Source: Branchiostoma floridae
Taxonomy: Eukaryota > Chordata > Leptocardii > Amphioxiformes > Branchiostomatidae
Direction of reading: 5' to 3'
DNA length: 64,000 bases
NCBI RefSeq assembly: GCF_000003815.2
Contig: NC_049991.1
Coordinates: forward strand, 6,601,964 to 6,665,963
Part shown: positions 33,911 to 58,014 of the stretch, in pieces
Layout: each line of letters opens with the position of its first letter
Numbering within the stretch: position 1 is the first letter of the stretch
Translations under genes and position numbers: made by a program
The notes under the pieces: generated by a model
Database searches by the model: none
What the model was told of the DNA's origin: nothing
Seen by the model: the letters and a program-made list of their open reading frames with translations, nothing else

Positions 33911-34402
33911 ATGGACAAGGTACGCTATTGTATGGAGGCGCTCGCTGGTAATTATTCACCATTTGAACAACGCCCGGAGAGTCGGCTCATGCATAGAAAG
34001 ATAGACATGTGTGCGTTTGACAGCAGCTCGGACTCGGAGGGAGGCGGGAATTCTCCCGGGCCGCCCTCGCCGACGTCCCCGGCCACTCTCCGCCAGCTGT
34101 ACGACCGGCAGGTGTGCGCGGAGTGCGCGGCGCTGCTCCACTCCTCCAAGCCGCCCGCCTGTTGGAACATCATCCACCTGTTCTGTGCCGGCTGTCTGGA
34201 GCGGATGCCGGCACGGGACGCCCTGAGAGCCCGGATCCGGATCGACCTGGGCCTGAAGCTGGTGTGTCCGGACTGCGGGGGGACCGAGGAGGCGCCCGGG
34301 GAGTGGGTGGACTCGTACAGCGTCACCAGCCGGCTGCCCAAACTGCACGACGTCTCCCCGCCGGGACTAGGCAGAAGAAAGCGCTTCTTCCGTCGCCGTT
34401 GA
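33911..34402 (+). CDS. RING-like C3HC4 zinc-finger protein A, 163 aa, intronless
   Basis: Start chosen at ATG with good Kozak context (caccATGG). Cys/His ligands follow a RING-HC order: C69-x2-C72, C84, H89-x2-C92-x2-C95, C119-x2-C122. The spacing fits C3HC4 except for 4 residues between C84 and H89 (usual 1-3); HLFCAGCLERM resembles the second half of TRIM-type RINGs. RING proteins usually act as E3 ubiquitin ligases; that role is inferred. The N-terminus has an acidic/Ser motif (DSSSDSEGGG) then a Pro/Ser linker. The C-terminus is very basic (GRRKRFFRRR), like a nuclear or RNA-binding tail. The core (34104-34351) is 100% identical in DNA to the paralogue at 57.7-57.9 kb. ATGGACAAG is followed by gtacgc, a possible donor, but the frame runs on without an intron. 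Confidence 0.75.
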   Translation: MDKVRYCMEALAGNYSPFEQRPESRLMHRKIDMCAFDSSSDSEGGGNSPGPPSPTSPATLRQLYDRQVCAECAALLHSSKPPACWNIIHLFCAGCLERMPARDALRARIRIDLGLKLVCPDCGGTEEAPGEWVDSYSVTSRLPKLHDVSPPGLGRRKRFFRRR

Positions 34403-35100
34403 TTCAACACAAAATAACACCCGCGTGTAACGAAAAGAGACATTCGTCAAGATAGACTTTATGGACGTTTAGAAACGGGTTTCAGAACGATTATCAATGC
34501 TTCTTCTTCTTCTTTTCTCACCGGATTGGAGATAGAACATTGATTAGAGCAGATGGATCGGTGGGTACAAATTTCATTACCACTTGCTGACAGTGACTGA
34601 TGCAGGTAACATTGTTCTCTGTATAATTTACTTTTGGTTGATGTGGCAGAACAGCCGACAAGATCACGTTAGTAGGAAACAAATTGATTATGATAGATCC
34701 CCTGACATCAATTTGATCACATTTTCTTTGGAGATCTGTTTGTTTGACATGTTGCAGTACGTTAAGTTGTCTATATTTTGTATTAAAGATTTTTTTCTTA
34801 TCTACATTTGATAAGGATTACTTGCGCTGAAACTGTAGATACTTTCAACGGAAATGATAATGTAGTGTGCCAAAATTTATGAAAAAGGTGACAGAAGTAA
34901 AATAGATATTAAGCTCTACTGGTACGTACTTAAAGAAAGCAATTGGAAAACAGGGTATTGTGAGTCAATGTTACATAGAGAATCGTCTCAAAGCGTATAT
35001 TATCACTGCAAGAAATCTGATCTTTAACCACCTTAAAGAGATTCGTAAAGGATACCGCAAAATACTTTCATGAAAAAACGCAACCTTTCCGCAGGTGCTT
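34403..35100. other. Intergenic stretch, nothing recognised
   Basis: 3' flank of the RING-like gene. No AATAAA lies within 200 bases; gtattaaag near 34780 is the nearest candidate. Confidence 0.4.
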
Positions 35101-35483
35101 AGACCTAGGAAAAAATGTTGCGTTTCCTGTTTCCCTGCCTACCCTAGAAAATCCTGCCGACCCTGGACTTTTTTGGGGTGGGCAGTGGAGTTACATAGCT
35201 TCTAGGTAGAATTCTTATTTAGCCTGCTTCCTATTGAAATAAAACACTGCCTGTCCTATCTAATGAAGGATAAATGCATCTTTTAATCGCAACATTCCAG
35301 TATGACGTTGAAAGACACTTATCGTTATCATGCATTTCAATTTACTTTGTTCAACTGGATTGTAATATGTCATACTAGAGTTTGGACCAGCCTAAAAAAA
35401 ATACAAGAAAAAAAAATCCCTACCTACCGTCCCTGATATCTTCAGGACTGAAACAGGAAGCACAACATTTTTTTCTTAGGCCT
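35101..35483. mobile_element. MITE-like element with ~33-bp inverted ends
   Basis: Left cctaggaaaaaatgttgcg...tcctgtttc pairs with right gaaacagga...caacatttttttcttagg. It is about 380 bp and has no ORF. Confidence 0.75.
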
Positions 35484-36099
35484 TATAAAGATTGGGCTTC
35501 GTACAGTGTATAGAATAGAGGCGAAGACATTTGTATTCATGTAGCGTTTTGTCCATTGTAAGTGAGGTGGCCAGTAACTAATTGCAGGAATTGTCGTCCT
35601 TCAATAACGGCTGCGTGGTGTAATGAAAAAGGAGTTCCTCTGTTATACTGGAGAAATGATAGGTTCTGCAATTGGTGTGACCTCGACCGCCATTGTCTCG
35701 ACACTTTGGAAAAACGGTCAATATTGGAGACTGACACGTTGCCAAAAAAGGATATCACACCATACCGTGTGAAAGTTTACGGTGAACTATAATGTGACCT
35801 GAATGTAAGTTCATCTGTGACTGTAGTCAACATTATGTTACAATTTTAAGACTTCATATCCGTGCACAAAATAAAGCGCTTACCAACATTTACATCAGAG
35901 CTCAACCGAGACGGGGGCCGATACCGACTGCCAAGCACCTTTGACTGTTGGCTGACGTCACGTTTCCATTCCGGATGTGTGACTTAGGTTTTGGGTCATT
36001 TCTACGTGTTGATCAAAAGCTTGTTGGTTAGCGCTTTTTTGTGTGCACGGATATAAAATCTTAAAATTGTAACATAATATGATGTGACTAGCATTGTAA
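35484..36099. other. Intergenic stretch, nothing recognised
   Basis: Only short ORFs. A CCAAT-free, mixed-composition region. Confidence 0.35.
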
Positions 36100-36320
36100 G
36101 AGAGAGGAAATTTTGAATAACACATGTTTTGTTCACAACCAAGTGATGTATTCTACAGACGTTTTGTTGACAGTCTGTCACCTTCCTCAGGGCAATTCGG
36201 ACTGATTCATTGTACTGCAGCATAGGTGTCGCTGCTTAAAGATGCGATCCCAAACGTAAGTGCAACGCTTACAGGTCAGAATTGTCCTGAAGAAGGTGAC
36301 AGACGGTCACAGAAAAGTCG
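36100..36320. mobile_element. Family B repeat with inverted ends
   Basis: gacagtctgtcaccttcctc...gggcaatt pairs with aattgtcc...gaaggtgacagacggtc. The centre holds gtactgcagcataggtgtcg and gcgatcccaaacg, as in the esterase introns. Confidence 0.65.
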
Positions 36321-37190
36321 GTTGACTAAAAAACTTGGTTGTAGACAGATAATGTTGATTCTAGGGACTTTCCAACTTAAAGAAATTGTTCAGTAAGAGA
36401 AAGTGTTATTGTAAAAAAGAAAGAAATACGTAGTATATGTGTCTTTCTGTGAAATGTGAAAAATTGTGAGATACATGAGCAATAGTGCTGCTAGACAATG
36501 CATGCTGCAGTAGTATGTGTTTGAGAACAAAGTTCTGTGTATTGAGATATGTGATAGAATTTTAATACACAAATAAGAACCTACACATTTGTGATCCTTA
36601 TGCTTTTTTACATGATAAAGTTTATTTTCATTTTTTTTAGAGGCACCATTATTTTTTGCTCTTATGTTGTTTAACCAGCATAAAAAAATTAGCTAGAAAG
36701 CTATCCTTGTAAAAATTTCCTTTTGAGTTTGTTTCAAAAACACTTCTTCCTTTCACATGTCCTTTACTCAAAATTAATCTTACGATAAGTTCTTCCCCGA
36801 AACTCAAAATGGTTTAGTCCTGTACGGACCAATGGAAAATTCCAGTCCTCTTTCAATACTCATTTTTCCGAGCTGAGACGTCTTGAAAAATCGTCTTCGC
36901 ACCTGCGTTGATAAGACTGCTCTTTCTTGAAATATATAACCTGTTCCACTTTAAATGACAGAAGACACCGCGAATTTATTGAAACGAACGACGTTTGGCA
37001 GTTACAGAGGCGGTGAGCCATTCATTTTAAGGTGCCAAGGATGACTTGATAACACCTTTATAATGTTTTATTCACATGTAATAAATGTCTTATCATCCAG
37101 AGATGTAGTTCATTTAAGGTCTTTAGGGGAAGCATACTAGAAACGTTCAAATATTTATTTGAACGTCCTGTGGCGGCATTACGTGGTGAC
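36321..37190. other. Intergenic stretch, nothing recognised
   Basis: AT-rich, with only ORFs of 60 codons or fewer. Confidence 0.35.
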
Positions 37191-37645
37191 ATGTTGGTGT
37201 AGCGGTTAGGGTATTTGACCCCAAACCTAGAGGCCAACACCTTATATTTGCCCTTGTCAACCGCACCGATGTCCGTCAGGGATGTAGCCTCGACCCGGCT
37301 CCGAAGTCACAAATTTGTCCCGTAGAGGACTGTCGGATACCGGGGACACCCCTCAGTGTTCCCCACGGGTAGATCACGGCGTCTATTTGTTACGGGGTGC
37401 CGGGCCGGTTTTGACTCCGACTTAAAATGAACCCGGGACATGGCCGTACTCAAAGTTTCCCCGGGAGCCGCAGGACATCCCACGGGGTCACGTAAGGGAC
37501 ACGCCTGAAAGTGCAAAAAAAAAAGCCCATGAACTGTTTGGCAGGGCACCTTTTTCCAATTGGGACCTAAGCTTTAACGTGACTTTCCTCACTTCACTTT
37601 AGTTAAAATGATTAGGCGACTTCGGTTAGGGAGGTAGACACATCA
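37191..37645 (+). repeat. SINE with GC-rich internal segment
   Basis: tRNA-like head (tggtgtagcggttagggtat) and the shared SINE tail (actttcctcacttcact...gacttcggttagggaggta). Between them is about 300 bases of GC-rich sequence that other copies lack, possibly an insertion or a different SINE subfamily. Confidence 0.5.
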
Positions 37646-38940
37646 GATACCAATTAAGTACTTTGTGGCTTCCTGTACGTTATTAAGCTTATTGTTTTTT
37701 GCTTTTTTATAATTTTATTTTGGCATTTTCTTATTCATTAACTTAGATGCAGTGCCCCCTCTTCTTTTTTTTCTCCAAAAGCAAATATAAAAATATTCAT
37801 TTTAAAAGAATCTTTGAAAAGTACTTTGAAAAGTACGTTCTATCAACAGGACAACAGTTTTTGTAAGAAACTACGCTTTACTGTAGTAGTATGTTCACAT
37901 ATGTACATCTGTAGATAGCAAATATTGAACCAGAGTCGCTAGAGTGTCCGTGCATACGTTATGTGAGTCGTTATATGTGATATACGGTGTGAGTATACGT
38001 GCCAAACGACTGTGTAACCAAGTATCTCTATATTTGTATTGTAGGTTATTAAATATACCTTCTATGAAGGGCAAGAAACGAATATATTCGTTTTTTTTCA
38101 TTGTGCGCTATTGTATGGTTTGATTTGATTATTGAATTCGAAATCACCGACAATGGAATACATGGCTAATATAGGGATTAACATTTGTGTGAAAGTACGT
38201 TTAACGCCCCTCCCAATAAGACTAAAAAAACATGTTCAAACACCACATATATACCTAAAAGTTTTATTGTCTGGAAATGTAGTAAGCTGGTCTTAGGTAC
38301 TACAGTTTACTAATGTAGCATAAGAATGAAAAAAGAGGCACTCTGTTCTCACGAGATGTACATAAGATGTACATGTGATGTACGATACATCTGGGAACTC
38401 TTACTTGTTAACATGCAATTGGACATGCGAAACCTTAGGTTTAGTTTGGTTTAGTTTGGTTTGGTTATACAGATCTCCATTAGTGACTGATATGTCACTA
38501 TTCTTCCTGGAGTCCGGGTGATTTGTAGAGAATCACCAATTCTAGACGGAAGGATTTTGCACCATCACACACCGCACCATCGCACCATCGCAGGTAATAG
38601 CCTGAGAGTAACGTTCACTTTTCATAGTCTTGCCACTACTATATATAAGCCCAAATACAGCCCTATCCCCAACTGCGTTCTCACGAGATGTTTATATGTG
38701 CGAGAGTTTGCGAGATATCCAGGAACTCTTGTTTACAACTCTATCCGTTGAGACTTGGCTCCAAGAGAGTCATATGTCCTTTTTTTATACCTCTTGCCAC
38801 TTCTACGTACACCCCATATAATCCAATCCCAAACTTGCTATGAGTTGATCATCATAAAAACATAAAACCACCACCCAACCGATCGTAATGAATGTACAAT
38901 CTGTAGCACGGAGGATTGTAAAAGTGTATAGCTCCCAAGC
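37646..38940. other. Intergenic stretch with two related blocks
   Basis: tgttctcacgagatgtacat...tctgggaactctta near 38345 is echoed by cgttctcacgagatgtttat...ccaggaactcttg near 38675. No gene seen. Confidence 0.45.
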
Positions 38941-38946
38941 CTCTGG

Positions 38947-39570
38947 TATAGCTATCTACTGTGCGGTGTTCTTCAACGAAGCTTGACCATACTTAGTAAT
39001 TAGGCCACAGCAAGTAAATTCCATGGATGACATACTATGCAGAGTGCAAAAAAAAAATGAGAAAGGGCGAAATAAAACAAGATGGGTAGAAAGGAAACAA
39101 GATGGCTAAATTTTCAAAATAGACAACATTAACGTCGTAACGTGATTTGAAGTGACAAAACGTGGCATTACATCTAAGAAGGCATTCATTCCTGTATTAA
39201 AGAAGTGAACTACTGTAGTGAAATACTAGTGTGGTACACTGGTATCAATTGCCAAGCCTGCGACTACAGTCATGGCTTCCATATTGGGACAACTTTTACA
39301 ACTACCTACTAAATTCTTAGTTTCACCTCTACAGCCACGGCTACCTGGCTAGTGTCACTTCTACAAGTACAACCATTAGCCTATAACACAACATATTTGC
39401 CCATTTTGGCACTTTCTCGTCATGTTGACCATCCCCGAAGAAAAAAAAATCTTGTTTTTTTTTCTGAAATCAGGCAAAAATTAATGCGCGCGCTGATGTC
39501 ATCCATAAAATTTAAATGCTGTGGCCTATAGCTATCTACTGTACAGTGTTCTTTAACGAGGCTTGACCAT
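38947..39570. repeat. Direct repeat pair
   Basis: tatagctatctactgt(g/a)c(g/a)gtgttctt(c/t)aacga(a/g)gcttgaccata occurs at 38947-38991 and at 39526-39570. Between the copies, sequences such as gctagtgtcacttctaca resemble the minisatellite at 63.3 kb. Confidence 0.7.
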
Positions 39571-40188
39571 AATAAGCTCGGTCCACGACTTGGAACGATC
39601 ACGACAGGGAGCAATCTTCTCACTTTAGTCACTTCTATTTGGGAAAGCAATTTGATACATACGCGCTAAGGCGTAAATTGCCTTTTTTTCATTTTCACCC
39701 AATAGGGTTGGTATTGAGTGCAACGTTCCGAAGATAACAGTATCGGGCATATTGAGTGGTATTGTCGGGATGTTAGCACTAACAAAATCGATATTTGTGT
39801 TACTTGAAGCTAAAAAGAAACATTGCTACCCAATGCTTGAATATGAAATAAGTAAGAAGATACAAGCAAGGAAACAAATACAAAATGTAGATGTAAAGAA
39901 AAACAAAATCCAGTATGAAGTACTTTTTGGCTACAGAGATTACTATTTAAAGCACAATTTGACAGAGCTAAAGAGAAAAAACAACAAAAGAAAATATCTT
40001 ACTGAAAAAATTTTAGGCTAAAAACCTGCAATTTAATATTTCTAACCGACCCTTCCTGAGAACTGACTTCCGAAATTTTTATTGCAACAAAAAAAAAGTG
40101 TTTGATAACGATTCTAAAACATTTTGATCACTCGATGTCTGGTAAGTCGGGTGACCGAAAATGCTACATAATTTTTTTTCCCAAAGTT
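39571..40188. other. Intergenic stretch with a Lys-rich ORF
   Basis: An 89-codon ORF at 39752-40021 is rich in Lys/Asn because of A-rich DNA. No domain recognised and not supported as a gene. Confidence 0.35.
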
Positions 40189-40438
40189 GGTATCTCACTG
40201 CACTTCGGGCACTGGTACGGCACTGCGGAGTTGGAAAGATTACGAATTTCAGAGATAAAGAACGATTTTTTTACGCGTTTTGCGTATTTTCTTGTCTTCT
40301 AAAGTCATACCTTTACGTACTCGTATTGCGCAATATTTGGATTATGAAAAATAGGCGAAAGTATTATAACACAACCGTGCCGCAGTGAACGAACCCCGCA
40401 GTGCCGCACCAGTGCCCCAAGTGCAGTGAGATACAACC
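40189..40438. mobile_element. MITE with ggtatctcactgcac ends, family E copy 1
   Basis: Left end ggtatctcactgcacttcgg and gtacggcactgcgg pair with right end ccgcagtgccgcacc and gtgcagtgagatac. Copies 2 and 3 lie at about 41846-42060 and 46905-47137. No transposase. Confidence 0.85.
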
Positions 40439-40689
40439 GTAAGCCTTGAGCGCTGATGCCATGTAGTTCCTGTGAGAGAATGCACTATTAAATGTATGCG
40501 TGAGCACAAACTCCTTCCAGGGCCTGCAATAACATCAAGGAACTGATTGCCATCCAAATGTTAACCCGTAAGATTTATATTACCACGACGGAAACTTCTG
40601 CGTGAACAAGAATAGTTTTACTTTTAAACCTATCTAGATCGACCTTTTGGGGGGGATTCCTGAAACGGGGTGGGGGTGGGGGGCTCATT

Positions 40690-40893
40690 TGGTCCCGACC
40701 TCGTAATTTCAAAATGGCTTAGGTTACGATCGCTCCAAATTTCCGGGAATGATGTACTAGTAGAATTTTATTACTTTCTGTAATTTTTGGATCGTAATAA
40801 CGTAATATGGCGTAATTATGACGTCATGGTAAATTTTTTGGGCTAAAACCATCTAAATAGGGAATTTATGTTATGTTAGCCCCCCCCCCCCCC
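40690..40893. repeat. Dispersed repeat, family C copy 2
   Basis: cgacctcgtaatttcaaaat...gtaattatgacgtcatg...gggctaaaaccat and a C15 tract match the copy at 10062-10280. Confidence 0.6.
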
Positions 40894-41845
40894 TCTAGAT
40901 AGAGTTAACTGTAAGAAAACACTAGTGATATAGATTGAAGTACATCCTATATCTTTACATTGCTTTTCCCTTTTTTATGGTATAGATTAAATTTAAACAG
41001 TAGCTTATATACCCCCCAAAACAGGTCTGGACAGTGGTTGTATGCCCATTTATATATTTGCAAACAACATTCTTCCCGCTTTAACATGCAGTTCTGTTCC
41101 GTTTAAAAATCTAAAACGTCACACCACATTACGCACACTACCTTTTTAATACTACACGAAACCTTCAGAAACATAATATTTTTCACTATTTAAAATATCT
41201 AACGCAACCATCTATATCTATGCCATAGTCTTCTCCTACCATGTACCGTATGACGATAACGATATTAGTAATGGTATGGCCGCCTACATTTTTGGATTAA
41301 TAAAGGAACATTAGGGAAGAGAAATTGCGCAAAATTCAAAGCAATCTTAATAAGATCTTGCCTGTACTAAAGAACGCTGCTGTTGCATGACGCCCAAGGC
41401 TACCAGGCGTATATCGTCACGAAAATTATGGTCCGTATATTCTCCACCCAGCCAAATAAACGTGCCACAGTAATAGCATCAACTATATTCATTTATGATT
41501 GACGTACCTTCCCGTAAATCATGAAACAGCATAAACTTTATACGTTGATGATTGACGTACTTTCACGTAAAATATCAAAAAGTCGACGTCAAGACAATAT
41601 TGTTAGCGTTTACCTTCTGATAAGGTATTAACAGTGGCTACCTAAAGATCTTATTCATTAAAGCTATTATCTTCTAAAACATGAAATGTTGTCGTTCGTA
41701 GATCATCTGAAGTGCAACGTTATTGTTTTTTCATTGACCTAAATAAGTTAGAATATCCTTGTGTTGTATAGAGACTTGACACGAGAATTTTTTTTCCAAA
41801 CAAAAATGGAAATTGAAAATACTACGACAGCGGCAATCACTAAAG
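40894..41845. other. Intergenic stretch, nothing recognised
   Basis: gattgacgtac(t/c)tt(c)ccgtaaa occurs twice near 41500 and 41548, a small local repeat. No gene. Confidence 0.35.
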
Positions 41846-42060
41846 TACGGGTGCGGCACGACGGGGTTCACTCACTGCGGCACTGTGTGTTATTTTCGCC
41901 GATTATTTGTAATCAAGATATTGTGTTGTACGGAAAAGTATAACTTTGAAGACAATACACAAAACCTACAAAAATTCGTTCTTTATCTCTGAAATTCGTT
42001 GAGTTATCTTTCGAACCCCGCAGTGCCGCACCGGTGCCCCAATTGTAGTGAGATATAACC
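41846..42060. mobile_element. MITE family E, copy 2 (left end degraded)
   Basis: gtacgggtgcggcacgacgg at the left; aaccccgcagtgccgcaccg...agtgagatat at the right. Confidence 0.7.
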
Positions 42061-43422
42061 TTAAGAGCCTGGTCATACAAGTTCGTTTCACAATTGTCGC
42101 ACGATCAAAAACTGAGGGAATTCTTAAGCTAGCCGTAATTCCTACGACGGATGTAACACCGCCGTTAAGATTTATGCACGACAAGAAACCGAAAACGACC
42201 TCCTAAATTTACAGTGTTCAGCGCATACATCCGCATCGCTTCCGGCTGAGCAGCTATTTTAAGTCAAACCCCTAGACGCCTCCCAAGTTGGAGGATAAGG
42301 GATTCCGTGCCGCATCTCTTGTGGCCGTTTGCCCGACTTACGACCCTAATGTGTTGGTGAAATTGATGACTGCATTATCTCGCCAAATCTCGCGTGAATA
42401 CAACACCGCGAGACTTTGCGAAGCCTTATCCTACTAATCTTCCAGAGGAAAATAATTTTCTTTCGCTAAATTCTCGATTATACGAAAAAATATCTTCAAA
42501 AACAAATTGTGCAAAAAAAAAGGAACCAACCTTTAAAAATTACCTGCACGAATTGTGGACTCGTCCGGGTGATGTTCGGGTCAAGTCGGGGATTTCCGAA
42601 TTTTACCGATGATGAAGTGGGTTGGCTACAGTTCACGACCTATCCGTCACCTATACGGAGCGGTTATTACCGAGGATATTGGGAAGGATTGAAGGGGCAA
42701 ATGAGGTGGAAACGAGGAAAGAAATTGCTCCCCTGTTGAAGAAGACGTCCCGAACACAGTAACATGTAAGGTCACAGGGTAGGGGAATTGAGGTGAGAAT
42801 AAGTCTTCTCGAATAAGCACTGAGGTGTTACTTGATTAGCGAATACCCGGTCAGTGACTCTAGAAAAATACACACGCATTTCTTATAAGATATTACATAA
42901 TAGAGAAGAAAAGTAATATGATGTTCAATAATAACTTGTAAACGTCGTGAAAAGTTGAGGTACAGTTACCATTTTGTGTTGGGAATTTCAGTACACCTTT
43001 TCTACAGAATGATATAATTGTTTGTTTGTTTTGTTTGTCTGTCTGTATTGTTTGTGTGCCCGTGTACTTTGTAGGAAGTAGACCTTTCCATTATTATCTT
43101 TTGTCGTGAGCATACTATGGTCTTAAATTTATGCTTTCAATGTTCTTGAAAGAAACAATCTGAAAGGGCCATGACTAAGGAAAGTTACTGGAAATGTAAA
43201 AATTACAACCAATGCATAGTTTTTGAAGTTGTAAATGTAATTCAATGAATGTGGAAACTAAAGTCTAAAACATACCGAAAACAATACCTCCATTTTCATG
43301 AAGGTAACCACCAGTTCAAAATATGCATAACACGCCAAATGGTACACCACTCACTCTAGATCTGTTATCAAAAACTATATCTCCGTGAATAGTTTCATCA
43401 GGTTGGTATATATGACACGTTT
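42061..43422. other. Intergenic stretch, nothing recognised
   Basis: Only short ORFs without recognisable domains. Confidence 0.35.
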
Positions 43423-43647
43423 GGGACTAATTTGCAGATTAACCAGTGGCATAAGATAGTTTCAAAGGTGTCCAAGGAGGACAGCTGGTCAAAGGGAGTG
43501 ATCAGCAGCTGGCCAAAGGGAGTCATCAACAGCTGACCATAGGGAGTCATCAGCCACAAGCCAAACACACTCCTAGGCCGGTTTCACACCTCTGGCAGCT
43601 TTTGATACTATCTTATGTTACCGTAGGATCTGGTTGAGGATTAGTTT
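43423..43647. mobile_element. Foldback/MITE family A, copy 2
   Basis: Ends gtggcataagatagt and actatcttatgttacc...ggatctggtt match the element at 3310-3473. The inside carries three diverged direct copies of agctg(g/a)cca(a/t)agggagtcatca. Confidence 0.7.
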
Positions 43648-43689
43648 CAAATAAAGTCTCACATTCTGAAGTAGTAGGAAGAATTGTAC

Positions 43690-43930
43690 CTAGTCCTGAT
43701 CCTCTGGACCTGAACCGTCCCTGGACCTTATCCTCTGGACCTAGACCGTACGATGACCTGATCCTCCTGACCTGAACCGTACCTGGACCTGATCCTCTGG
43801 ACCTGAACCGTCCCTGGACCTAATCCTCTGGACCTAGACCGTACGATGACCTGATCCTCCTGACCTGAACCGTACCTGGACCTGATTCTCTGGACCTGAA
43901 CCGTACCTGGACCTAAATGTTCTGTACCGG
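43690..43930. repeat. Minisatellite of tcctctggacctgaaccgta units
   Basis: Units of about 30 bases (gatcctctggacctgaaccg, tacctggacct) are arranged in a higher-order repeat of about 95 bases. A related inverted short copy is at 54905-54990. The minus-strand ORF here is a repeat product. Confidence 0.9.
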
Positions 43931-44394
43931 TACCCAACCCTAGTCAGAAGTGAAAAGACACTTGCTAACCTTAGGGCAAGTCAGGCTAGGGTTGTCACTT
44001 ATCCAATTCATTTCCAGTAGGTCAATGACCTCATTTAAACACAACAAACCACCTGACACAGGTTGATGGAGGTTTATTGACGTGGCACGTTGACCTCTGA
44101 CCCGTGGGCTCTTATTTTCCTGAACACATTTTGCCTGGAAATCGACCGTATGGCGGGTTGGGTGAATGAAATGTCTTCAGCTAGTGTTAAACGCTGTCAG
44201 ATCCTTATCGTGTTAACGGTCAATTTTCAAAATACACTTTGAATGCAGCGATTGGTAGATTTGTACAGCGATGGCCCTAAGCATTTTGGCATTGAGGCAC
44301 CGAATAGCCGTTGGTGGCTAGGTTAAATGACATGAGACAATAGTTCATTGCTTTTATTCTCGGAGCTCTTGCCTAGACATTTTGTCCTTGAAAA

Positions 44395-44465
44395 AGGTAC
44401 CTTACACAACTTCCTTCACTACATCCAGATGTAAGAATTGGTACCTGACTTCGGTTGGGGAGGTT
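44395..44465 (+). repeat. SINE body fragment
   Basis: ttgaaaaaggtaccttacac...ccttcactacatccagatgt...gtacctgacttcggttgggg. Confidence 0.6.
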
Positions 44466-44960
44466 TGTTTGTTTGTTTGTTTATTCTTTATTTAACCAGG
44501 GTAAAGCATGTCGCCTGATGGCGTTTTTCAAAGCCCCATGGGGGGAGAACCCCGAACATAAATCATACATTAAATTCAACAGAACCAAATCAACTTCAAT
44601 AACATAATCATACATAACGTTCTATGAAACCAAGTTACTTAGGTAACATAAACATAAAGATTGTACAAAATCAGATATAACTTAGATAACATAAAATAAT
44701 GCCAAACGAGTGAAACAAAATATTAGCCTTAACGTGACATAACAGAGGAAACATAACAAAAAGAAGTCAAATTTAAAATCAGGATTGAATCAGGTAAAAG
44801 ACTGTAGAAGGAGAGGAATGGACCCCAGCTTTTCAAAACTGTGTTCTGCACACAGTTGATAACAATCCTGAGGTCTCAAGAAAAGGCTATGGGACTACCC
44901 TTACATTTGTCTTTGTCTGAATAAGTGCGGGACTTTCTATTTTGCTGTATAAAAGCTCCT
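44466..44960 (-). mobile_element. LINE-like 3' UTR fragment with (TTTG)n tail
   Basis: A (TTTG)5 run is followed by tttattctttatttaaccag, the usual look of a minus-strand LINE 3' end. No coding frame remains. Confidence 0.5.
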
Positions 44961-46904: not shown

Positions 46905-47137
46905 GGTATCTCACTGCACTTGGGGCACCGTTGTGGCACTGCGGGGTTCGTAGATGACTCAACAAATTTCAGAGATGAAGTACGAATTTTCTGACGATCT
47001 GTGTATTCTGTTGTCTTCTATGTCATACTTTTATTACGCAATATCAAATTATCTCAAAATGGTGGAAAAAACTCAGTGCCGCAGTAAACGAAACCCCGCA
47101 GTGCCGCACCGGTGCCCCATGTGCAGTGAGATACCAC
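46905..47137. mobile_element. MITE family E, copy 3 (best preserved ends)
   Basis: ggtatctcactgcacttggg...gttgtggcactgcggggttc pairs with gaaaccccgcagtgccgcac...gtgcagtgagatacc. Confidence 0.85.
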
Positions 47138-47144
47138 ATTTGCA

Positions 47145-47650
47145 TACTGAACTGACACCTGCTAATTTTCCAGGACAAGAAGAAATTTAATAAAGAGATG
47201 TGTCAAGATGTCAGAGAATTTAACCCAACAGCTTGAACTGAAACTCATTTTCCAGGGAGAGACACAGGCGTCTCCTGATGTTATTTGTAACAGGTGCATC
47301 CAGAAATCAGAGAATTGAAGCTGATGGCTTGCACTCACACCAGCTAATTTTCCAGGAAGAGTTACAGACGAGTCTTGGTGTTATTTGAAACAGGTGCATC
47401 CAGAAGTAAGATTATCAAAGTTGACGGCTTGAACTGACACCTGCTCATTTTCCAGGAAGACCTACAAAAGACTTTTTTGAATTAAATGTACCATGTGAGT
47501 CCAAAAATAATTCGACAGCTCGAACTGAATTTCAGGACAGCTCGGACTGTAATTCAAAGAAGAGTTACAGACAAGCCATGAAGTCAGATTACTAACTCTT
47601 GTTGATGGCTTGAACTGACTCTTATTCATTTTCCAGGAAGAAGTGGTGAA
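47145..47650. repeat. Tandem repeat, ~97-bp unit, 5 copies
   Basis: Core gcttgaactgacacctgct, cattttccaggaagagttac and atttgaaacaggtgcatcca recurs with spacing near 97 bases. The last units are diverged. Confidence 0.85.
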
Positions 47651-47959
47651 AATGGCTGACATTTTATTATCTGTCAAATCGGTCGGTCGAGTAGGGGTCG
47701 TCCGGTTTGTGGCTTGACTGTCGTCTAGGTTACGGCCAACTGATCTCCCAGCGGACGCCTGAATAGAAATCAATTGTAGCCATCTAAATTATTTGGCTTT
47801 CAAGCCCATGTCATACAGTTGACGAGATAAGTTTGGTTCTGCTGCTGCGCTCGGTTCTGCTTCGTTCGCTTTTCCGCTGCAGCACTGATTGCTATAATGT
47901 CAAAAATCGTCAGTGAATCGACCTTATGTTTTAAACACGTTGAACGGGACTTGTCAAAA

Positions 47960-48245
47960 AGGGAGGGAGAGAGAGGGACAGACAGACAGACAAACAGGCA
48001 GACAAACAGGCAGTCAGACAGAGAGAGACAGACAGACACAGGCAGAAACAGAGAGAGAGAAAGGTATGGAGATAGAGAAAGAGATGGCGATGGAGACAGA
48101 GAGAGAGAGAGACAGAAAGACCGTGTGAGAGATGCAGAGAGAGTCTGAGAGAGCTAGAAAGTAAGAGAGAGAGAGAGAAAATGAGTCAGTAACAGAGACA
48201 ATGAGAGAAAGATACAGACAGAAACAGAAAAAAAGAGAGGCAAAC
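47960..48245. repeat. Purine-rich (GACA/GAGA)n low-complexity tract
   Basis: Almost pure R-rich strand abutting the assembly gap. ORFs here on both strands are artefacts of composition. Confidence 0.95.
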
Positions 48246-48308
48246 ATAGAGACAGAGTGCGTGTATATGTATGGCGTGCTCCGCTGAATGCACCGGAAAA
48301 TTATGGAC

Positions 48309-48525
48309 NNNNNNNNNNNNNNNNNNNNNNNNNNNNNNNNNNNNNNNNNNNNNNNNNNNNNNNNNNNNNNNNNNNNNNNNNNNNNNNNNNNNNNNNNNNN
48401 NNNNNNNNNNNNNNNNNNNNNNNNNNNNNNNNNNNNNNNNNNNNNNNNNNNNNNNNNNNNNNNNNNNNNNNNNNNNNNNNNNNNNNNNNNNNNNNNNNNN
48501 NNNNNNNNNNNNNNNNNNNNNNNNN
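48309..48525. other. Assembly gap (217 Ns)
   Basis: Run of unknown bases directly after a low-complexity purine tract, so the join and its size are uncertain. Confidence 1.
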
Positions 48526-48961
48526 TTCATCAAACACGCTTATCGAACGCCTTCGTGAAGTATGGAAATGTCGATTTATGCACACTGCTGCATACTTTTT
48601 TAATCGGACTTACAAACAAGGTAAAGAAGTTACAAGGTTAAGTAGTCATCCTTTTTTGGTCACCCTTATTCTTCCAGATAAGTGTTTTTGCTTATTTTGT
48701 GCGCAGAGGTGTGACACTTGATGCTTACACTTTAATTAATTAGCTCCCATGTGCATGGAGCTGTCGGCTTTATGTCACCATTCGAAATATTAATAAAAAT
48801 GCAATAAATTACAACATGTCCTAGCTGGAATCGACCCTTGACATTGCTAGAATTGAACTTCGGCCCACGGATTCACAGTATTTGAAGACAATGTCTCGGA
48901 AGACAATGGTAGGCAGACAGGGTGGGTTTTAAGGCGACCCGTCTGCCTGGCCTGCACGTAA
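48526..48961. other. Stretch between gap and LINE, nothing recognised
   Basis: No ORF or repeat with support. Confidence 0.35.
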
Positions 48962-49212
48962 GTTTTCATTTTCTTTCTTTCTTTCTTTCTTTATTGACGA
49001 TGAGACAAGTCATTACAAGGGTCTGCCTAGGCAGCTTTGGGCTGGTAGCGGCAGAACCTACAAAAATGCGGACGAACATACAAAGAATTCATACAATATA
49101 ATACAATAAAATAATCAATAATTAAAAGGTGTCATGCAACTATACGATATAGCAATAGCTTACTTAAAAGATTGGAGTAGGTGGAAGGTCAGTATGCTAT
49201 CATACAACGAGT

Positions 49213-51116
49213 TTAATATTTAAATCCTGACAGAAGGTGGCTTCTGCAACGAGCTTTGAACTGTGGGAAAGTGGTGGAGTCGGTGATGTGGTTTGGTAGG
49301 TTGTTCCACAGTCTGGAGGTGTATGGAATGAAACTGTTGTTGTATGTTGTAGTTCTGCAGCGAGGGATATGGAGGTGTGAAGAGTTTCGCAGACGAAGCT
49401 GGGTTTGGGTTTGTCTTGTTTGAGGGATGAGTGGTTGGAGGTGAGGTGGTACAGTGCCAGTGACCAGTTTGTACATGATGACTACACGGTGGTAGTCTCG
49501 CCTAGTTGAGAGCCTGTCCCATCCGAGCTCTTGAAGCACGTCCGAGTAGGGTGTCCTTGGCGCTGCACCTGTAACTAGGCGGCCTGCATGGTACTGTACG
49601 CGCTCTAGTACTTTGGAGGCGGCTACACTCATGTTGGTGAAGAGGATGGAGGCATATTCCAGCCTAGGTCGCACTAGGGTAAGGTAAGCCAGTTCCAGTG
49701 CTTCCTTGGACAACTTGCCTCGCAACCTCCAGAGGTATCCAAGTACCTTTCTGGCCTTACTGGAAGTATTCTGTGCGTGCTCATTCCAGCCCAAAGCCTG
49801 GTGTAAGGTGACACCAAGATGCGAGTAAAAGGGAACCTGTTCGATGAGCTGGCCTGAGATGTAGATAGGAGGAAGTACTACTCTGCTTCGTGCAGACTTG
49901 ATGCAAATAACCTTGCACTTCCCTGGATGCAGTTCTAGACCCCAGACATCAAACCAGTCAGAAACAAGCTGTAAGTCGGAGTTTGTGGTGCTGGCTACCT
50001 GCTCGACCGTCGGTCCCGAGTTTGACAGAGACGTATCATCAGCAAAACTGTTAATGTCCGATGTACAAGGTAAGTCCTTGATGTCGTTTATGTAGACTAA
50101 GAATAACAGCGGGCCGAGGATACTGCCCTGTGGGACGCCCGCGTACGTGTGCCTCCAAGACGACGTAGCACCATTAATGACCACACGCTGCTGGCGGCCT
50201 GTAAGGTAGTGATTAAACCAGCCGAGGAGTGGTCCACTAACTCCGTAACGCGATAGCTTGTAGGTTAATCCATCGTGCCACACAGTATCGAACGCTCTAC
50301 GGACGTCCAGAAAGACGGCGGCCGTACAGGAGACATTCGAGTCATCAATGGACTTGGCCCAGTCGTCAACCAATCGCAGGAGTTGTAAGACTGTCCCATC
50401 CCCTTTTTTGAAACCAGACTGGTTGACGTTTAACAGATTGTTGACGGTAAGGTAAGTGTACAGGCGGTTGTGGACGACTCTCTCCAACACTTTGGCCACG
50501 GTAGGTAAAAGTGCGATCGGTCTGTAGTTTGATGGATCAGCCCGGTCACCCTTTTTGTATATTGCCGACACGTTTGACTGTTTCCAGTCTTTTGGTATTT
50601 GTCCTGTAGCGAGTGACAAGTTGAAAAGCTGACAAAGGGAGGCGCTGATGGCTGGTGCTCCCTCCTTAAGGAGTCGGTTGGGTATTCCATCGGGGCCTGG
50701 AGCCTTGTTAGGATGTAATCCTTGCAGCACACCCAGGACTTCTTCCTCTGAGACGTGAATTGTAGAGAGTACTTCGTCAGTGAACTTAGGGAGCCTGCTT
50801 GTAAAGTTTGGATGCGTAGCTTCCTTAGTGACTCTGACAAAGACGTCATTAAGGGTTTCTGCCTTATCTTTGTCTTTGTCCAGGACGATGCCATTTACGG
50901 AGAGTGCAGGAATGCCGGATTTACTCTTCCCTGTTGCTTGTTTGAGTACAGACCAGAAGGCTCGGGCGCCTTCAGCAGTTTTCAGTCTGTCACTAACAGT
51001 AGAGTAGTACTCAGCCTCCGCTCGGCGTAGGTCTTTCGTTAGGCGGTTCTTGGTTTGAGTGTAGTTTCTCCAGTTCTTTGGTGTTGGGGAGCACTTGAAG
51101 GTGTTGTAGAGTTCCG
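49213..51116 (-). pseudogene. LINE reverse transcriptase reading frame
   Basis: An ATG-started reading would begin late; the frame is in fact open from about 51116, through LKTAEGARAFWSVLK and EEEVLGVLQGLHPN, into the reverse transcriptase. Motifs: KAPGPDGIPN, NYRPIALLPTVAKVLE, AAVFLDVRRAFDTV, AGVPQGSILGPLLFLVYIND and the catalytic FADD box (about 50035-50046). The C-terminal region has LAYLTLVRPRLEYAS and YTSRLWNNLPNHI, typical of CR1/L2-like elements. The frame ends at TAA near 49213. Called a pseudogene because it is separated from its endonuclease by a frameshift. Confidence 0.85.
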
Positions 51117-51844
51117 TTTTTTTGACTGATTGCCTCCAGTAGTTCGGTCGTAATCCACGGCTTTCGTGCAGTTACCACCTTTTTTGTTTTGTTTGGGACA
51201 ATGTTTTTGGCAATGTTTAAGAACTTAACCTTCCAGCTATTCCATTTCTCGTCAATTGTAGGACCACACATACAATTATTCCAGTTGACTTTACCTAGTT
51301 CAGCCCTAAACCTATCAAAGTCTGCACGATTGTAGTACCATACATGCTTCTTGATGTGCTTTGTTGAAACAGAAATGCCCAGCTTACATATAACAGTAGC
51401 ATGATCGGAATTTCCTACAGGTGCTAGAGTAAACATTTCATTGATTCTGGATGGGTCAGACAGTATGATCAAGTCCAGGGTACTTTGCCGCGTCAGAGTG
51501 GAGCGGGTTGGCTGGTGTTGGGACTGGTGCAGACCGTATCTTTCGATGATGTCCGCCAGCTGTAGTGCGTGGTTGTCCGTGGACGAGTCCCCCCACTCGG
51601 TGTGGTGGCAGTTGAAGTCCCCAGTAATGACGGTTAATCCTTTCTCGGAAGCAGCTTTGGAGAGGCTGTTTTCCAGCTGATCGTAAAAAGGTGAAGGAGG
51701 GGTGTGCACTTCCTTCTCCACCCTCTCGTCAACTGGCGTACAGGGACAAGAACTGCATGCCACACGTAAGACAGAGCCCCAACAGATGCAGGTTTGTTGT
51801 TGGGAGTTTCTGTCTCCTAGGAAGACTTCCGACCAAGGATGCAA
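51011..51844 (-). pseudogene. LINE endonuclease (EEP) C-terminal half, frameshifted
   Basis: Endonuclease/exonuclease/phosphatase fold signatures: VITGDFNCHHTEWGD and GNSDHATV near the end of the domain. The N-terminal half is missing. After AISQKNGTLQ the frame shifts relative to the reverse transcriptase. A run of seven T at 51117-51123 (A7 on the coding strand) is the likely site of a one-base indel, since reading the other frame from that point gives continuous sequence into the reverse transcriptase. Confidence 0.75.
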
Positions 51845-51989
51845 GGGGTTCCTCCTACCCCTGACTCGTGTATAGTGGGTGCGTCATGCCCGAACATGGC
51901 CCTAAGGTCTGCCACAGCCACAATGTCTGTATGCTCTAAAGAAATACTGCCGGAAGCAAAGCTTCACATTCACGTAAGCCATACGGGCT

Positions 51990-52170
51990 AAGTGACATTT
52001 ACCTATATGTTAACCCTTTGCCTCAGGTGGTCGTTACAGATTTAATGACTTCTCCAAGGAGAACAGGCCCGTGTTTATATGTCATTGCCATGGCAACTAT
52101 ACGTGGACGTTGGATCAGAACTTATATGTTTAATGGAAATGGTTCGCAATTTGAAATAATTGGTGACAAT
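51990..52170. repeat. Diverged repeat, family F copy 2
   Basis: gtgacattt...ctcaggtggtc...agatttaatgacttc...attgccatggcaac...gcaatttga, same order as 45458-45610. Confidence 0.5.
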
Positions 52171-52555
52171 GTATGTGACAGGTTTAATGGCAATTCCATT
52201 ACGAAGACACATGGTTTTAGCGAGAGCAATGCCCCCAAATATTTTCGAGCTGTCACAAGGTTGGTCTGGGAAATTTTTAAATCTGGCCACTCTGAAACGC
52301 CATTCTCTGTACTTTGAGGGACAAATCTTGTTGGCAGACTATGCTAAATTCGATGTCATTTACATGTTAAAAGAAACATATTTCAGGGCAATTTGCCACG
52401 TCCAAAGTACGCTGTGAGCGCCAGAGGCGCAAGCTGTCTCTATGAAGGTCTGGAGAAAAGTTTGAAATCTTGACCTCTGAATTTCCTGCATTTAAGGGGC
52501 ACATTCTGCTTCTAAACTAAACTAAGTTCGATGGCAAATTTGCCCCCTAATAGAC

Positions 52556-52752
52556 TTAGGTGTAAATGAGTACCTAGCTTCATGGGGTCCTGTATTTCAG
52601 GACGTTAAAGGAACCACTGGCACCCTTTTCTGTGTGAGTGGATCAAATAAATCTGTCCAGATGTGCAGCTTGTACTCTTCGTTGCAAAAACCACGACATT
52701 TGGTGGTATAAAATACAATACAATACAATACAATACAATACAATGCAATACA
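52556..52752 (+). repeat. SINE tail with (AATAC)n microsatellite
   Basis: taggtgtaaatgagtaccta...gtgagtggatcaaataaatc...gcagcttgtactctt, then (aatac)8. The tail matches 19541-19620. Confidence 0.7.
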
Positions 52753-53104
52753 ATTGGTCTCACAAGACCCATGCGATTGTAACTCGCCGTTAAGTACGTC
52801 TACAATGTATATGACAAAATGATATTCAAAAATATCAAATTTGTGTAAAATTATGCTTTATTTCCTTTATGCTAAAAGCCCATTCATCTTGCTAAGAACT
52901 GACAGCATCTCCCTGATGAAGCCGGCAATGAAATATGAACTAATTTGGACAAATTGTTTGCTGGAGTACGCGTTTAAGTATTGCCCACTGACGTAATTGG
53001 CGTAGGCGGCCTACGGTTGATTGTTTAGCTTGCACGTCAGATGTTTGACGTTACGTCCGGCAGGAGCAGCAGTCTGTACTTCTTGACGTTCTTGACTTTA
53101 AATT

Positions 53105-53236
53105 AGGGGGGGACATTAATACAAACTTTTTGAAATACGCATTTTAAAATATGGAGATGATCTATATAAACACAGAAATCACAAAATTTAGGCAATTGTA
53201 AAACTCTAACCCCCTGTACATACCCCCTGAAGTTTG
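53105..53236. repeat. Inverted repeat arm, left (pairs with 55513-55660)
   Basis: gaaatacgcattttaaaata...caattgtaaaactctaaccc...tgtacataccccctgaagtt is the diverged reverse complement of the arm at 55513-55660. The arms may bound an element of about 2.5 kb or be two opposite copies of one repeat. Confidence 0.7.
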
Positions 53237-54904
53237 GATAGCCCCCTCGCCATGTACTTGTGTGACGTTGCTAGGATCTACAAGCACTCACTACATTACT
53301 TCAGTTCTTTTTGCACATTTTGTGTGATTAAATGATACATTATACTCCAAGATACTTTTCTACCAGGTTTTGGCTTAATAATCTTGGCTTCCATGGCAAC
53401 AGGGCAGCAAGTCTTGGGGCGAATTTCCATTATTTGGCCCAAAACAGGGAAGTCACGGCAGGGCAGTAATTCGACAATTGCTGAGAATAATAAAGAGTAC
53501 CCAGATCAACTACAAGTGTATTAAGCTTCACAAGAATAGTGGTAAAAGTTTCAGAAACTGGATGCCAAGGAATTGGGCAACTTCAAAAAGAATCATTGTT
53601 TCAAGGTAACAAAAACACAGTTTTTTTTTGCCAAGCTTAAAACCAGTGTTTTTATAAGTGTCGTGAAGTATGGACAGAAAAGCAACAGTTGACTTATTCC
53701 CAAGCTCTCCCCCTGTACATGTACATTCTATATCTCTCATTGTAAGCAAGATGCCTGCGATAATGAATTTCAACAATGTTTTATTGGTACCTGTATTTAC
53801 AACAGAAACAAAAGAACCATAGTCAAATTTACACTCATTGTAGATGGTGTCAATGGAATGTAACATATTTTTTGCAAGTACAATTTTAGGTTGATCGCAG
53901 ATGGGTGTTGCAGATGGATTTTTTGTGGTTATCGGTAGTGGCAGTGCTGTGTTCTTGAGTTGGGCCAGCTTTACACTTACATATCAACTTCTGCTGCTGA
54001 TGTTAAAAATCCATGTTGGGTTTCAGGGTTTGTAAGTCTTTGTCTCTCTTCCAATCAACAGCAATGTTTACAATCTCTTTCTCATTGAGTCCTTGCTTCT
54101 TAAGCCCCTGTTTTCTCTACCAAGCTATTAGACTCTCTAGTACCCTGCGTCCTTTATTTATTCAATATTCACATACATTTTGAGAGTATGGGGCAAAAAG
54201 CACAAATTGCTTATATTAAGCCTTCTACTCAAGAAACAAACCACATACATACATATGTACAGAATGGATAACAGAAAAGTAAATTTAGACAAGACAAAGT
54301 TGGTGCTGCATCAATTAGGAGAACCTGCCTGTGCAATGGATATAAGTATCGACAAAATCAAAAATATTACAGGTTTGTAGATGTGAAAGAGAAGTTGATC
54401 CTGATAACAGCAAAGAACATAAAGTAGTGTCGTTGAGGTGCTTTAGGTCTACTATTATATTGGAGACAGCCGATAACAAACAACTTCTTTGGCTGGTATA
54501 GAGTGTGCAGTGTAGGAGATAATGTCCTTTCCTGCCTTCTCTACTGTACTGTCTAAACGATACAGGTTCTCTTTTCTTTTTCAGTACCCTTGTAACTTCA
54601 GTAATTGTGGTTGCCACTTGGACAAAGACACTACAGACTTCTTCGTCTTTCCTTGTCTGTTAAAACATCTCCTTAGAGATAAACCCGAAGGCTGTATCTT
54701 TTACCTGCAGCAACTGAGTGCTCTAAATATCCACCTTTACATTTGAAAATGCATTTTGGTTGGCGCAACGTAATTCTTAATCCAAGTAACGCAGTGCGCA
54801 ACCTGAATTTTTTTCAGTTAGAACACCACTTTCCCCCCACCTACATGCATAAGTATTTATTTCTTGATAGGATAAAACATAAGTTACATGTAACTACAGG
54901 GGTG
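53237..54904. other. DNA between inverted arms, no gene supported
   Basis: ORFs of 112 (minus, 53528-53866), 66, 100 and 74 codons occur but none shows a transposase or other domain. Confidence 0.35.
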
Positions 54905-54990
54905 CCTAATAGGGGTGGGTGACGGTACAGAAAATCCAGATCCGGCTGAGGTCCAGAGGATCAGGTCCAGGTCCGGACCTGAACCTGATT
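54905..54990. repeat. Short inverted relative of the 43.7-kb minisatellite
   Basis: gggtgggtgacggtacagaa...gaggtccagaggatcagg...tccggacctgaacctg is the reverse-complement form of the units and edge sequence at 43690-43950. Confidence 0.7.
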
Positions 54991-55512
54991 CAGTATGTGA
55001 AAACTTGTGATACTCAAAACAATGGTCCATTTCGCTACAAAGAAATCTGCTTTGCGGGGTATTTGACCACCAATGGCGTTTTAAAATCCTTTAAGGCTAA
55101 CTGCCTCTGTGCGATTGACTGTAAAAATTGATAGAAATGACTACAGAATATGCTATACTATACTTCACTCTTGTTATTTTATTCTACGTAAAGGTAAGTC
55201 TGAAAACGTACATGATTTCAAAATTTGTAGAGCAATCACAAAGAAGAGAATGATATGTGACCAAATGTTTTGCCCATTCTGTGATAGTGTAGCCCGTTTC
55301 GTCCAATTTTGAGTTTGGACCAGTCCATTTTGCCATGGGGGTGACTTTGGAATAGTCCATATTTACCTAGGAAATACATTTAGAGGTTCAGATATCCACA
55401 GTGATCTCTCTTGAAGTCAAATATTGTGCCAAGGATGCCAAAGTACAATTTCTAAGGCATTAAGCGTGTTGGGCAGTATAGCGTTATACTAGCTCAGTAC
55501 ATTGTCAACTTA

Positions 55513-55660
55513 AAAACTTCAGGGGGTATGCACAGGGGGGTTAGCAATTAAAGATTTACAAAATTTTTACATTTTCATATTCAGATGGACCGTCTCCATA
55601 TTTCTAGGTGCGTATTTCATCAAAAACTGCATTTTTTCAAAATAGTGTCCCCCCCCTATT
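55513..55660. repeat. Inverted repeat arm, right
   Basis: acttcagggggtatgcacag...ctccatatttc...gcgtatttcatcaaaaactg...gtcccccccc; partner of 53105-53236. Confidence 0.7.
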
Positions 55661-57540
55661 TAAATGCTGTTTGTGTAACCTTAAGAACTGGCGTAAATGG
55701 CGTACTACATCAATCTTATACAATAACGTATCTACAAGCTGTGTTGGTTTGATACGTTTTATTCACGCACAAAGGGACGGATTTCTGTGCTCATATATTT
55801 AAGGCCTTGTGAAAAAATTATGTTTTCTGTTACCTAAAGAGACATCCCCAGCCCTTATCATCTCCATGCAAAAGGAAGATATAGTATTGGATGAGCATAA
55901 CTCAAGAACCACTAAATGGATTACAATGACATTTGGTATGTGGGTAGGTGTTGGAAAGACAAAGGTGAAGTTCAATTTTGAGCCCCCTGGCATGTGACCT
56001 TAGTACTGCAGCAGAAATTCTTTTTTTTATCTTTTTAAACTAGATGTGTTATGGTCTTAATTCTTAAATGGCAGATAGCTTGTGACATAAGGGAGTAATG
56101 TGTGTGCATATTTGAGCCCCCTAGCAGGTTGCTATGGAACTGCAGTAGGATTTTCGGACTAGTTTTCATAATCATGGTAAAGAATACCGAATTCCTAGCT
56201 ATTTGTCACCCTAGGGGAGGTAGTTCGACGATAGACTCCATAAGGTGATGTTTCCACTTTTTTCATAGTCACCATCAATCGTCACACTGGCTTACATAAC
56301 AGAGCATAACTCAACAACATTTAGCTCGAGATCTTTCTCCCTTTTATTTGAAACAATGACAAAATCAGTTTGCTAACGCTCGCTTGTTAAGAACATTTCT
56401 TGAAAAATTTTCCAATCTTACACAAGACACCATTTCTAACTAGAACAAATTTCTTGACACAGTCACATTTCTTCAAGTTTGTATGGCTTTAACTACCCTA
56501 GTAGCACGTTCGTCTAAAAGTTAGCAAGACCGTCACTGTATATTTGTACACCACCCGCATACCCCAATACATTTCTGCCTGATAGCTAGGTTATTAAAGT
56601 TGGTCTTGTGTATCCAATCTTGTCTACCTTGTGCCCCTCATGAGGAGAATTGCACATAATCACATCGCAGTCTTGCACTTTCGTATCCAATCATTGTCAG
56701 TCCTTGTCATGTATAACAGAAGTGCAACCTTATTTCAGTCTTTAATGAGTTGGTGATGAGTTTCGGCGTCTATCAAAAATGTGGCGACCTTCTCTGATTG
56801 AACAACACAAAGGACACCATCAACTCGGCTAACCGAATTCGCACACAGTCATTTGGAAATCACTGCGTTCATCACCCACTGTTAGCGTGATAGGAATCAA
56901 AATGGCGCCGTCGAATTGCATCACGGGAGTTACGTAACCCAACAAATTAAAAGTTTAACTTGAACTTTCAGGAAAGTTTTGGTTCTGAAACGCAAAAGGG
57001 ATGCAGCTTTCTGAAACACGGTGTCTGAAAAGCTCAGATTCTGACAAAATTGTAAATCTAAAATGTGATTTTAAATCTTAGTTCAATAATCATAGTTCAA
57101 TAGTTCATTTGTTTAAGACAACATGGCACTAGAAATTATCAAGTTGCAAGATACATGTACAACCTAACTTGTAATATAGCCATTTCTTCTGCCACACATC
57201 CACCTAAAACTCAGAAACACAATACACAAGTCCAATTCTTAAAGCAGTGTAGTTTTTCGATCACATAGTTTTAGATGGTTGAAACAAAACTAACAGCTAT
57301 GATACCTACTCAAAAAGATACATTACCGTAAACCACATACTTTACAATGATATTTTTGTCAACGGTAGATTGAACCAATCATCCTATCGTGTCCAGTCCA
57401 TTTCTGTTCGATTCGTCTACTGCAGCCAGTTCAGCAATATTGTCGAGTATGGCATCTACTCCATGTAGTTCTCCTATATAAAGATATAACGGCTAGTCAC
57501 AATTGGACTTGCTATTGAAGTATCAGTCTAGCAGCATTGC
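55661..57540. other. Intergenic stretch with a ~125-bp near-duplicate
   Basis: gagccccctggcatgtgacc...actgcagcag near 55980 is echoed by gagccccctagcaggttgct...actgcagtag near 56113. No gene recognised. Confidence 0.4.
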
Positions 57541-57612
57541 GTGCAAATGGCAGTCCGTGTCTTATCACTGATGTATTACAACACGTTCACATGTCGTTGC
57601 TTTCTCACTCCG

Positions 57613-58014
57613 TTACCATGGGACAAGCCGTCCTCTCAGACTGCTGTTGTTGTTGTTGCTGTCGTCCTGTCCGGCTGCTGCTGCCTTCGGGTCGTGCAGT
57701 TTGGGCAGCCGGCTGGTGACGCTGTACGAGTCCACCCACTCCCCGGGCGCCTCCTCGGTCCCCCCGCAGTCCGGACACACCAGCTTCAGGCCCAGGTCGA
57801 TCCGGATCCGGGCTCTCAGGGCGTCCCGTGCCGGCATCCGCTCCAGACAGCCGGCACAGAACAGGTGGATGATGTTCCAACAGGCGGGCGGCTTGGAGGA
57901 GTGGAGCAGCGCCGCGCACTCCGCGCACACCTGCCGGTGTAGACTCCCTGCCGCCGGCGGGCTTGCCTCTCTCCCCGCCCCGTCCGAGTCCGAACCGCTA
58001 TCCCCTCGGACCAT
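57613..58014 (-). CDS. RING-like C3HC4 zinc-finger protein B, 133 aa, intronless
   Basis: Paralogue of the gene at 33911. Start chosen at the first in-frame ATG (58014) with Kozak-like context (aggATGG); the frame opens slightly earlier without ATG. Residues C30-x2-C33, C45, H50-x2-C53-x2-C56, C80-x2-C83 repeat the ligand set of protein A. The DNA from 57691 to 57938 is 100% identical to the reverse complement of 34104-34351 (checked base by base). Outside the core the proteins differ: B starts MVRGDSGSDSDGAG, ends in an Asn/Ser stretch (SNNNNSS) before LRGRLVPW, and lacks A's basic tail. Just upstream lie short out-of-frame ATGs (a uORF ending TGA) that could reduce translation. The E3 ligase role is inferred from the fold only. 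Confidence 0.72.
   Translation of the reverse strand: MVRGDSGSDSDGAGREASPPAAGSLHRQVCAECAALLHSSKPPACWNIIHLFCAGCLERMPARDALRARIRIDLGLKLVCPDCGGTEEAPGEWVDSYSVTSRLPKLHDPKAAAAGQDDSNNNNSSLRGRLVPW

Follow-up and report, generated by a model that had tools for sequence, protein, structure and literature searches.

Interlocus (ectopic) gene conversion is recognized by a stretch in which paralogues that differ elsewhere become abruptly identical, also at synonymous sites, and it has also been reported for copies in inverted orientation (PMC3966223). According to the same paper, its frequency in C. elegans drops with distance over 1–8 kb, and paralogues in the same orientation were suggested to be favoured. 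In Branchiostoma floridae, 9,992 paternal and 5,850 maternal non-crossover conversions were reported from 104 offspring, with allelic tracts that averaged 99 bp and were shorter than 200 bp in 90.9% of cases; these conversions were GC-biased except for the maternal tracts spanning several single-nucleotide polymorphisms (SNPs), which showed an AT bias (PMC12500494). Among amphioxus gene families, homogenization by gene conversion was considered most likely for VCBP5b by the authors who described it (PMC2632668). Here we analyzed a 64,000-bp stretch of the B. floridae reference genome, hereafter the window (NCBI RefSeq assembly GCF_000003815.2, contig NC_049991.1; C13:6601964-6665963), in which two small inverted genes, A and B, share an identical 248-bp core that encodes a putative RING-like zinc finger. 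The likeness to the VCBP genes lies in the conversion proposed for VCBP5b; the family is a different one, and the inverted repeats described there are features of VCBP-region haplotypes (PMC2632668). A literature search found no paper on inverted amphioxus RING finger genes with gene conversion.

The core was also found in a third gene, C, beyond the window. The best reading of the sequence comparisons is that the cores of A, B and C were probably homogenized by gene conversion within this three-gene family, an ordinary mechanism to which we assign a probability of roughly 0.84. Recent gene conversion between inverted paralogues had been proposed in a preliminary description of the window. The codon test on A and C and the tracts in a neighbouring carboxylesterase pair, both described below, argue for conversion as proposed, and the event has to be extended from a pair to three genes.

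Genes A, B and C

The features of genes A and B in the window are as follows.

33544..33549 (+): TATA-like motif upstream of gene A, a pattern match with a putative promoter role
34007..34402 (+): gene A, open frame of 131 amino acids when read from the conserved start, which aligns with B and C
34019..34048 (+) in A and 57974-58002 (-) in B: residual N-terminal homology, 25/30 alignment columns matching
34104..34351 (+): identical core, copy A, with the RING-like Cys/His part; 248/248 bases shared with copy B and 245/248 with copy C
34352..34402 (+): basic tail of gene A ending in GRRKRFFRRR and the stop, common to gene C and without similarity to the tail of B
57613..58014 (-): gene B, open frame of 133 amino acids with an in-frame stop upstream
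57613..57690 (-): tail specific to gene B, with an Asn/Ser run and the stop, unlike the tails of A and C
57691..57938 (-): identical core, copy B, equal to copy A without exception
58096..58101 (-): TATA-like motif upstream of gene B, likewise a pattern match with a putative promoter role

The 248 bases of copy A equal the reverse complement of copy B at every position, which bears out the identity first described, and the two tails are also as described, basic in A and rich in Asn/Ser in B. The cores lie 23 kb apart, both within open frames. An exact-match survey of the window (matches of at least 60 bp, direct copies more than 60 bp apart, tandem array at 3.4-8.2 kb excluded) gave five diagonals, namely a minisatellite at 43.7 kb, three stretches of two tandem gene copies, and the A–B core, which was the longest of the five. 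The core comprises 82 whole codons with 45 fourfold degenerate ones and ~63 synonymous sites, and it begins inside a codon and ends on a codon boundary. Its GC content is 0.70, and its GC content at third codon positions (GC3) is 0.91 vs 0.63–0.81 in the coding flanks of A and B. The frame of gene A can be read from an ATG at 33911 or at 34007 and ends with the stop at 34402. The upstream in-frame ATG (CACCATGG), which stands in a good start context, adds 32 residues that B does not have and gives 163 amino acids. Gene B runs on the minus strand from the ATG at 58014 to the stop ending at 57613.

A search of the whole genome with the core (513,431,437 bases in 431 contigs) returned three places, which are A, B and C. 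Copy C lies at C13:6699719-6699966 (minus), 34 kb beyond the window and 40 kb beyond B. Inspection of this locus (C13:6697000-6702500) revealed an open frame reading MSGSDSSSDSEGSGNSPG...LYDRQ-core-VSPPGLGGRRKRFSRR, a full-length paralogue of A with a start of the same kind and the basic tail in common. One core with two different tails had been described earlier; the tails do differ, but it is B, with its Asn/Ser run, that is the odd one among the three. The C core departs from those of A and B at positions 14, 32 and 41, all three differences being synonymous, and bases 42–248 are identical across A, B and C, so that the same 82 residues are encoded three times. Each gene apparently encodes a small single-exon protein with an acidic Ser/Asp start, the RING-like core and a tail. 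In the surrounding 264 kb (C13:6521964-6785963, including 5199 N), tblastn found no member beyond A, B and C; the one other match covered 13 residues (E 0.49 with A, 0.22 with B). The family of three is thus defined by the core search of the genome and the 264-kb tblastn search, and distant members elsewhere are possible.

Outside the core, the N-termini of A (from 34007) and B (from 58014) share the pattern M-x3-DS-x-SDS-x-G-x-G. The best local DNA alignment of these N-terminal parts, which gives the 25 matching columns listed above, scored 33, compared with a maximum of 32 in 5000 codon shuffles and of 26 in 41 GC-rich control stretches, and the score of the protein N-termini was matched in 0/2000 shuffles. 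The C-terminal tails of A and B could not be aligned (a fraction of 0.83 of 2000 shuffles scored as well), and neither could the non-coding flanks when 28-42 kb was compared sensitively against 50-64 kb. This comparison did yield three further weak matches, none of them within either gene; the nearest (E 0.031) lies ~0.6 kb beyond where gene A ends. The earlier statement that neither side of the core aligns therefore holds for the tails and the non-coding flanks, but not for the N-termini, which retain weak homology. No alignment was obtained for the untranslated flanks of A and C either (224/500 shuffles score as well on the 5' side and 489/500 on the 3' side), and the A–C duplication is therefore probably not young.

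Probable conversion of the core and its alternatives

The cleanest test is offered by A and C: their coding flanks can be aligned, and the core was delimited from the A–B comparison, so that its limits are not post hoc here. Among the degenerate codons shared by A and C, 76 are the same and three differ in the core, compared with 11 and 10 in the N-terminal part and eight and six in the C-terminal part. The fraction that differs is thus 3/79 inside the core vs 16/35 outside (Fisher 1.7e-7; 4e-6 against the N-terminus alone and 3e-4 against the C-terminus alone). For A and B, the counts are 79 same and none different in the core, and six same and seven different outside; the Fisher value of 2e-7 is post hoc and too small, because the core was picked for its identity. 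In both pairs, synonymous divergence is lower inside the core than outside. The longest identical run was 209 bases for A–C and 207 for B–C, and neither was reached in 10,000 permutations. The same was true of the A–B run of 248 (372 columns with 70 differences; 0/10,000) and of the A–B run of 247 in the three-way alignment, which no permutation reached. The GC3 of the core, raised relative to the coding flanks, also counts in favour of conversion, as do the short tracts and the GC bias seen in most classes of B. floridae conversions (PMC12500494).

A, B and C are paralogues whose non-coding flanks have diverged past alignment and whose coding ends have diverged strongly; we hypothesize that the constrained core stayed alike enough to serve as a substrate for homologous repair. 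A break in one core would be repaired from another core, and the tract would stop where the homology stops. Since repair of this kind would be limited by homology, identity would fill just the constrained part and the coding ends would remain different. Recent conversions would then have covered at least 248 bp between A and B, and at least bases 42–248 with C. The differences of C, all within the first 41 bp of the core, look like a tract edge and would fit tracts with different ends.

Several points weigh against conversion. The length of 248 bp exceeds most of the tracts measured in B. floridae (PMC12500494), for which overlapping conversion events would account, and an AT bias was seen there in maternal multi-SNP tracts. 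The inverted A–B spacing of 23 kb lies above the 1–8 kb quoted for C. elegans and runs against the suggested preference for the same orientation (PMC3966223). The permutations ignore varying constraint along the protein, the comparison covers three paralogues of one genome assembly, and donor and recipient are not distinguishable among A, B and C.

The age of the last A–B homogenization can be bounded with the B. floridae mutation rate of 5.89e-9 per base per generation, for which the exponent of the abstract was used, one passage of the paper printing another (PMC12862219). From zero differences, the 95% bound would be ~1.0 million generations with all 248 sites taken as free, or 4.0 million with freedom at the 63 synonymous sites only. 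With the reported synonymous diversity of 0.0397 (PMC12862219) and an effective population size (Ne) of 1.7 million, allele coalescence is expected at 2Ne, ~3.4 million generations. The bound is of the same order, and the tract may therefore be polymorphic in the population. A far more speculative scenario, which we regard as very improbable, is that the inverted cores act as a reversible exchange site, with a population carrying several combinations of starts and tails around one RING-like core kept alike by conversion. Crossing-over between A and B or between A and C would invert the intervening DNA and swap starts and tails; nothing here shows that this occurs.

Of the alternatives to conversion, an assembly or polishing artefact survives best, at low odds. 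Cores that differ in the animal would have been assigned a single consensus, or real copies would have been joined to the wrong flanks. Reads shorter than the 248-bp exact repeat cannot resolve the copies, a 217-base N gap lies between A and B at 48309-48525 (the surrounding 264 kb contains ten gaps in all), and one mis-assembled gene duplicate, VCBP1/4, has been reported from the B. floridae reference (PMC2632668). A consensus error, however, needs cores that are already near-identical and could mask a few differences without producing the pattern. The three loci have distinct flanks with the frame kept on both sides, and C holds three core differences of its own, which indicates that the cores were not simply merged. 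The collapsed or duplicated assembly named as an alternative in the preliminary description is weakened accordingly, and what is left of it is the possible smoothing of a few differences.

Capture of the domain at B, in which only the core would recently have been duplicated and inserted into an unrelated frame, appears still less probable. It would agree with a B tail and non-coding flanks that cannot be aligned with those of A, and with a B tail that is also unlike that of C. On the other hand, alignment of the B N-terminus with that of A begins at the start codon, the reading frame continues through both edges of the core, and the pattern between A and C would be left unexplained. Possible vehicles were also considered. 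As regards a moved exon, neither copy has an AG in front of it, and only copy A is followed by GT. As regards carriage by a transposon, the ends of the core in A and B are not bordered by direct repeats, and words shared within 20 bases on each side do not exceed five bases.

Equally improbable in our view is selection that fixed the synonymous sites, such as an RNA element or an antisense frame overlapping the core might impose. Long antisense open frames do cross both cores, at 33952-34446 (-) and 57572-58036 (+), and the three cores encode the same residues. These antisense frames run on into unrelated flanks, however, and long antisense frames are unremarkable in GC-rich coding DNA. No Rfam family reached its gathering score in the window, and the differences of C are clustered rather than spread. 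Finally, two alleles of a single locus are excluded because the flanks have nothing in common, and chance identity of the core was rejected.

The core as a putative zinc-binding domain

The core reads C-x2-C-x11-C-x4-H-x2-C-x2-C-x23-C-x2-C, which has the Cys/His order of RING-HC zinc finger proteins and differs from them in the C3–H4 spacing of 4. The RING consensus has a spacing of 1–3 at this place; the core fails the strict pattern and fits if 4 is allowed. Pfam zf-RING_5 was aligned over profile positions 2–42 of 43 with E 0.17 and 12.3 bits, below the cut-off of 27.9. The best Pfam match in A was the archaeal zinc finger model HVO_0758 (E 0.16), and the best NCBIfam match was the archaeal zinc finger HVO_0416 (E 0.024, far below its cut-off). 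A PDB sequence search gave three matches, an archaeal small zinc finger (E 0.2) and TRIM2 twice (E 0.31 and 1.1). Among viral contigs, 15 pattern matches were found, none of them a relative. The AlphaFold model, with a mean predicted local distance difference test score (pLDDT) of 47 and three helices, was not usable for the fold. The earlier label of a RING-like core is thus carried by the Cys/His order but not by the Pfam score; zinc-binding and RING-like appears to be a fair description, and a role as a RING ligase would be a further, inferred step.

A carboxylesterase pair and other features of the window

A similar mosaic was observed in two direct carboxylesterase copies at 8127-12186 and 14751-19251, where Pfam PF00135 was matched on four frames. 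The Pfam search covered 30 stretches of the window, which has 164 stop-to-stop frames of at least 75 amino acids. Three tracts are identical between the copies.

8228..8322 (+): tract 1, 95 bp, identical to 14853-14947
9029..9140 (+): tract 2, 112 bp, identical to 15663-15774
12008..12101 (+): tract 3, 94 bp, identical to 19073-19166; esterase by position only

In the exon alignments, identity and longest run were 0.78 and 95 for E1, 0.83 and 103 for E2, and 0.85 and 94 for E5, which is assigned to the esterase from its position alone; none of these runs was reached in 5000 permutations. Exon E3 had a weak excess run (11/5000 permutations) and exon E4 had none (2230/5000). Strong local constraint on the protein is the alternative here, and the codon counts speak against it: shared degenerate codons are identical in 91/91 cases in the three tracts vs 59/81 outside them in the same alignments. 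The corresponding Fisher values, which are post hoc, were 0.12 for E1 (not significant), 4e-6 for E2 and 0.002 for E5. Tract 2 extends eight bases beyond the apparent exon end, past a donor-like GT at 9133, a weak hint given that donor sites are also constrained. Short conversion tracts thus appear to be recurrent in the window, with the esterase pair as a second likely case.

On the reading as conversion, genes A, B and C would be a clear small case in which concerted evolution affects a single domain across a family of three genes. Should other parts of the genome behave in the same way, paralogue dating and orthology assignment in this animal would be misled by short conversion tracts within conserved exons; such tracts would also serve as natural markers, both for tract length and for the homology required.

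Directly upstream of the first esterase copy lies a tandem array (3506-8109) of ~985-bp units in ~4.7 copies that are 97-99% alike. Retrotransposon frames were found at 871-3006 (-) and 49213-51844 (-), both with reverse transcriptase PF00078 and the latter place also with an endonuclease frame, PF14529. The minisatellite at 43686-43916 has a 31-bp unit and a higher-order period of 93 bp, with 96% matches. At 63065-63382 (+), the C-terminal region of GREB1 is weakly matched (E 0.0033, 17.6 bits against a cut-off of 25), possibly by an exon of a further gene.

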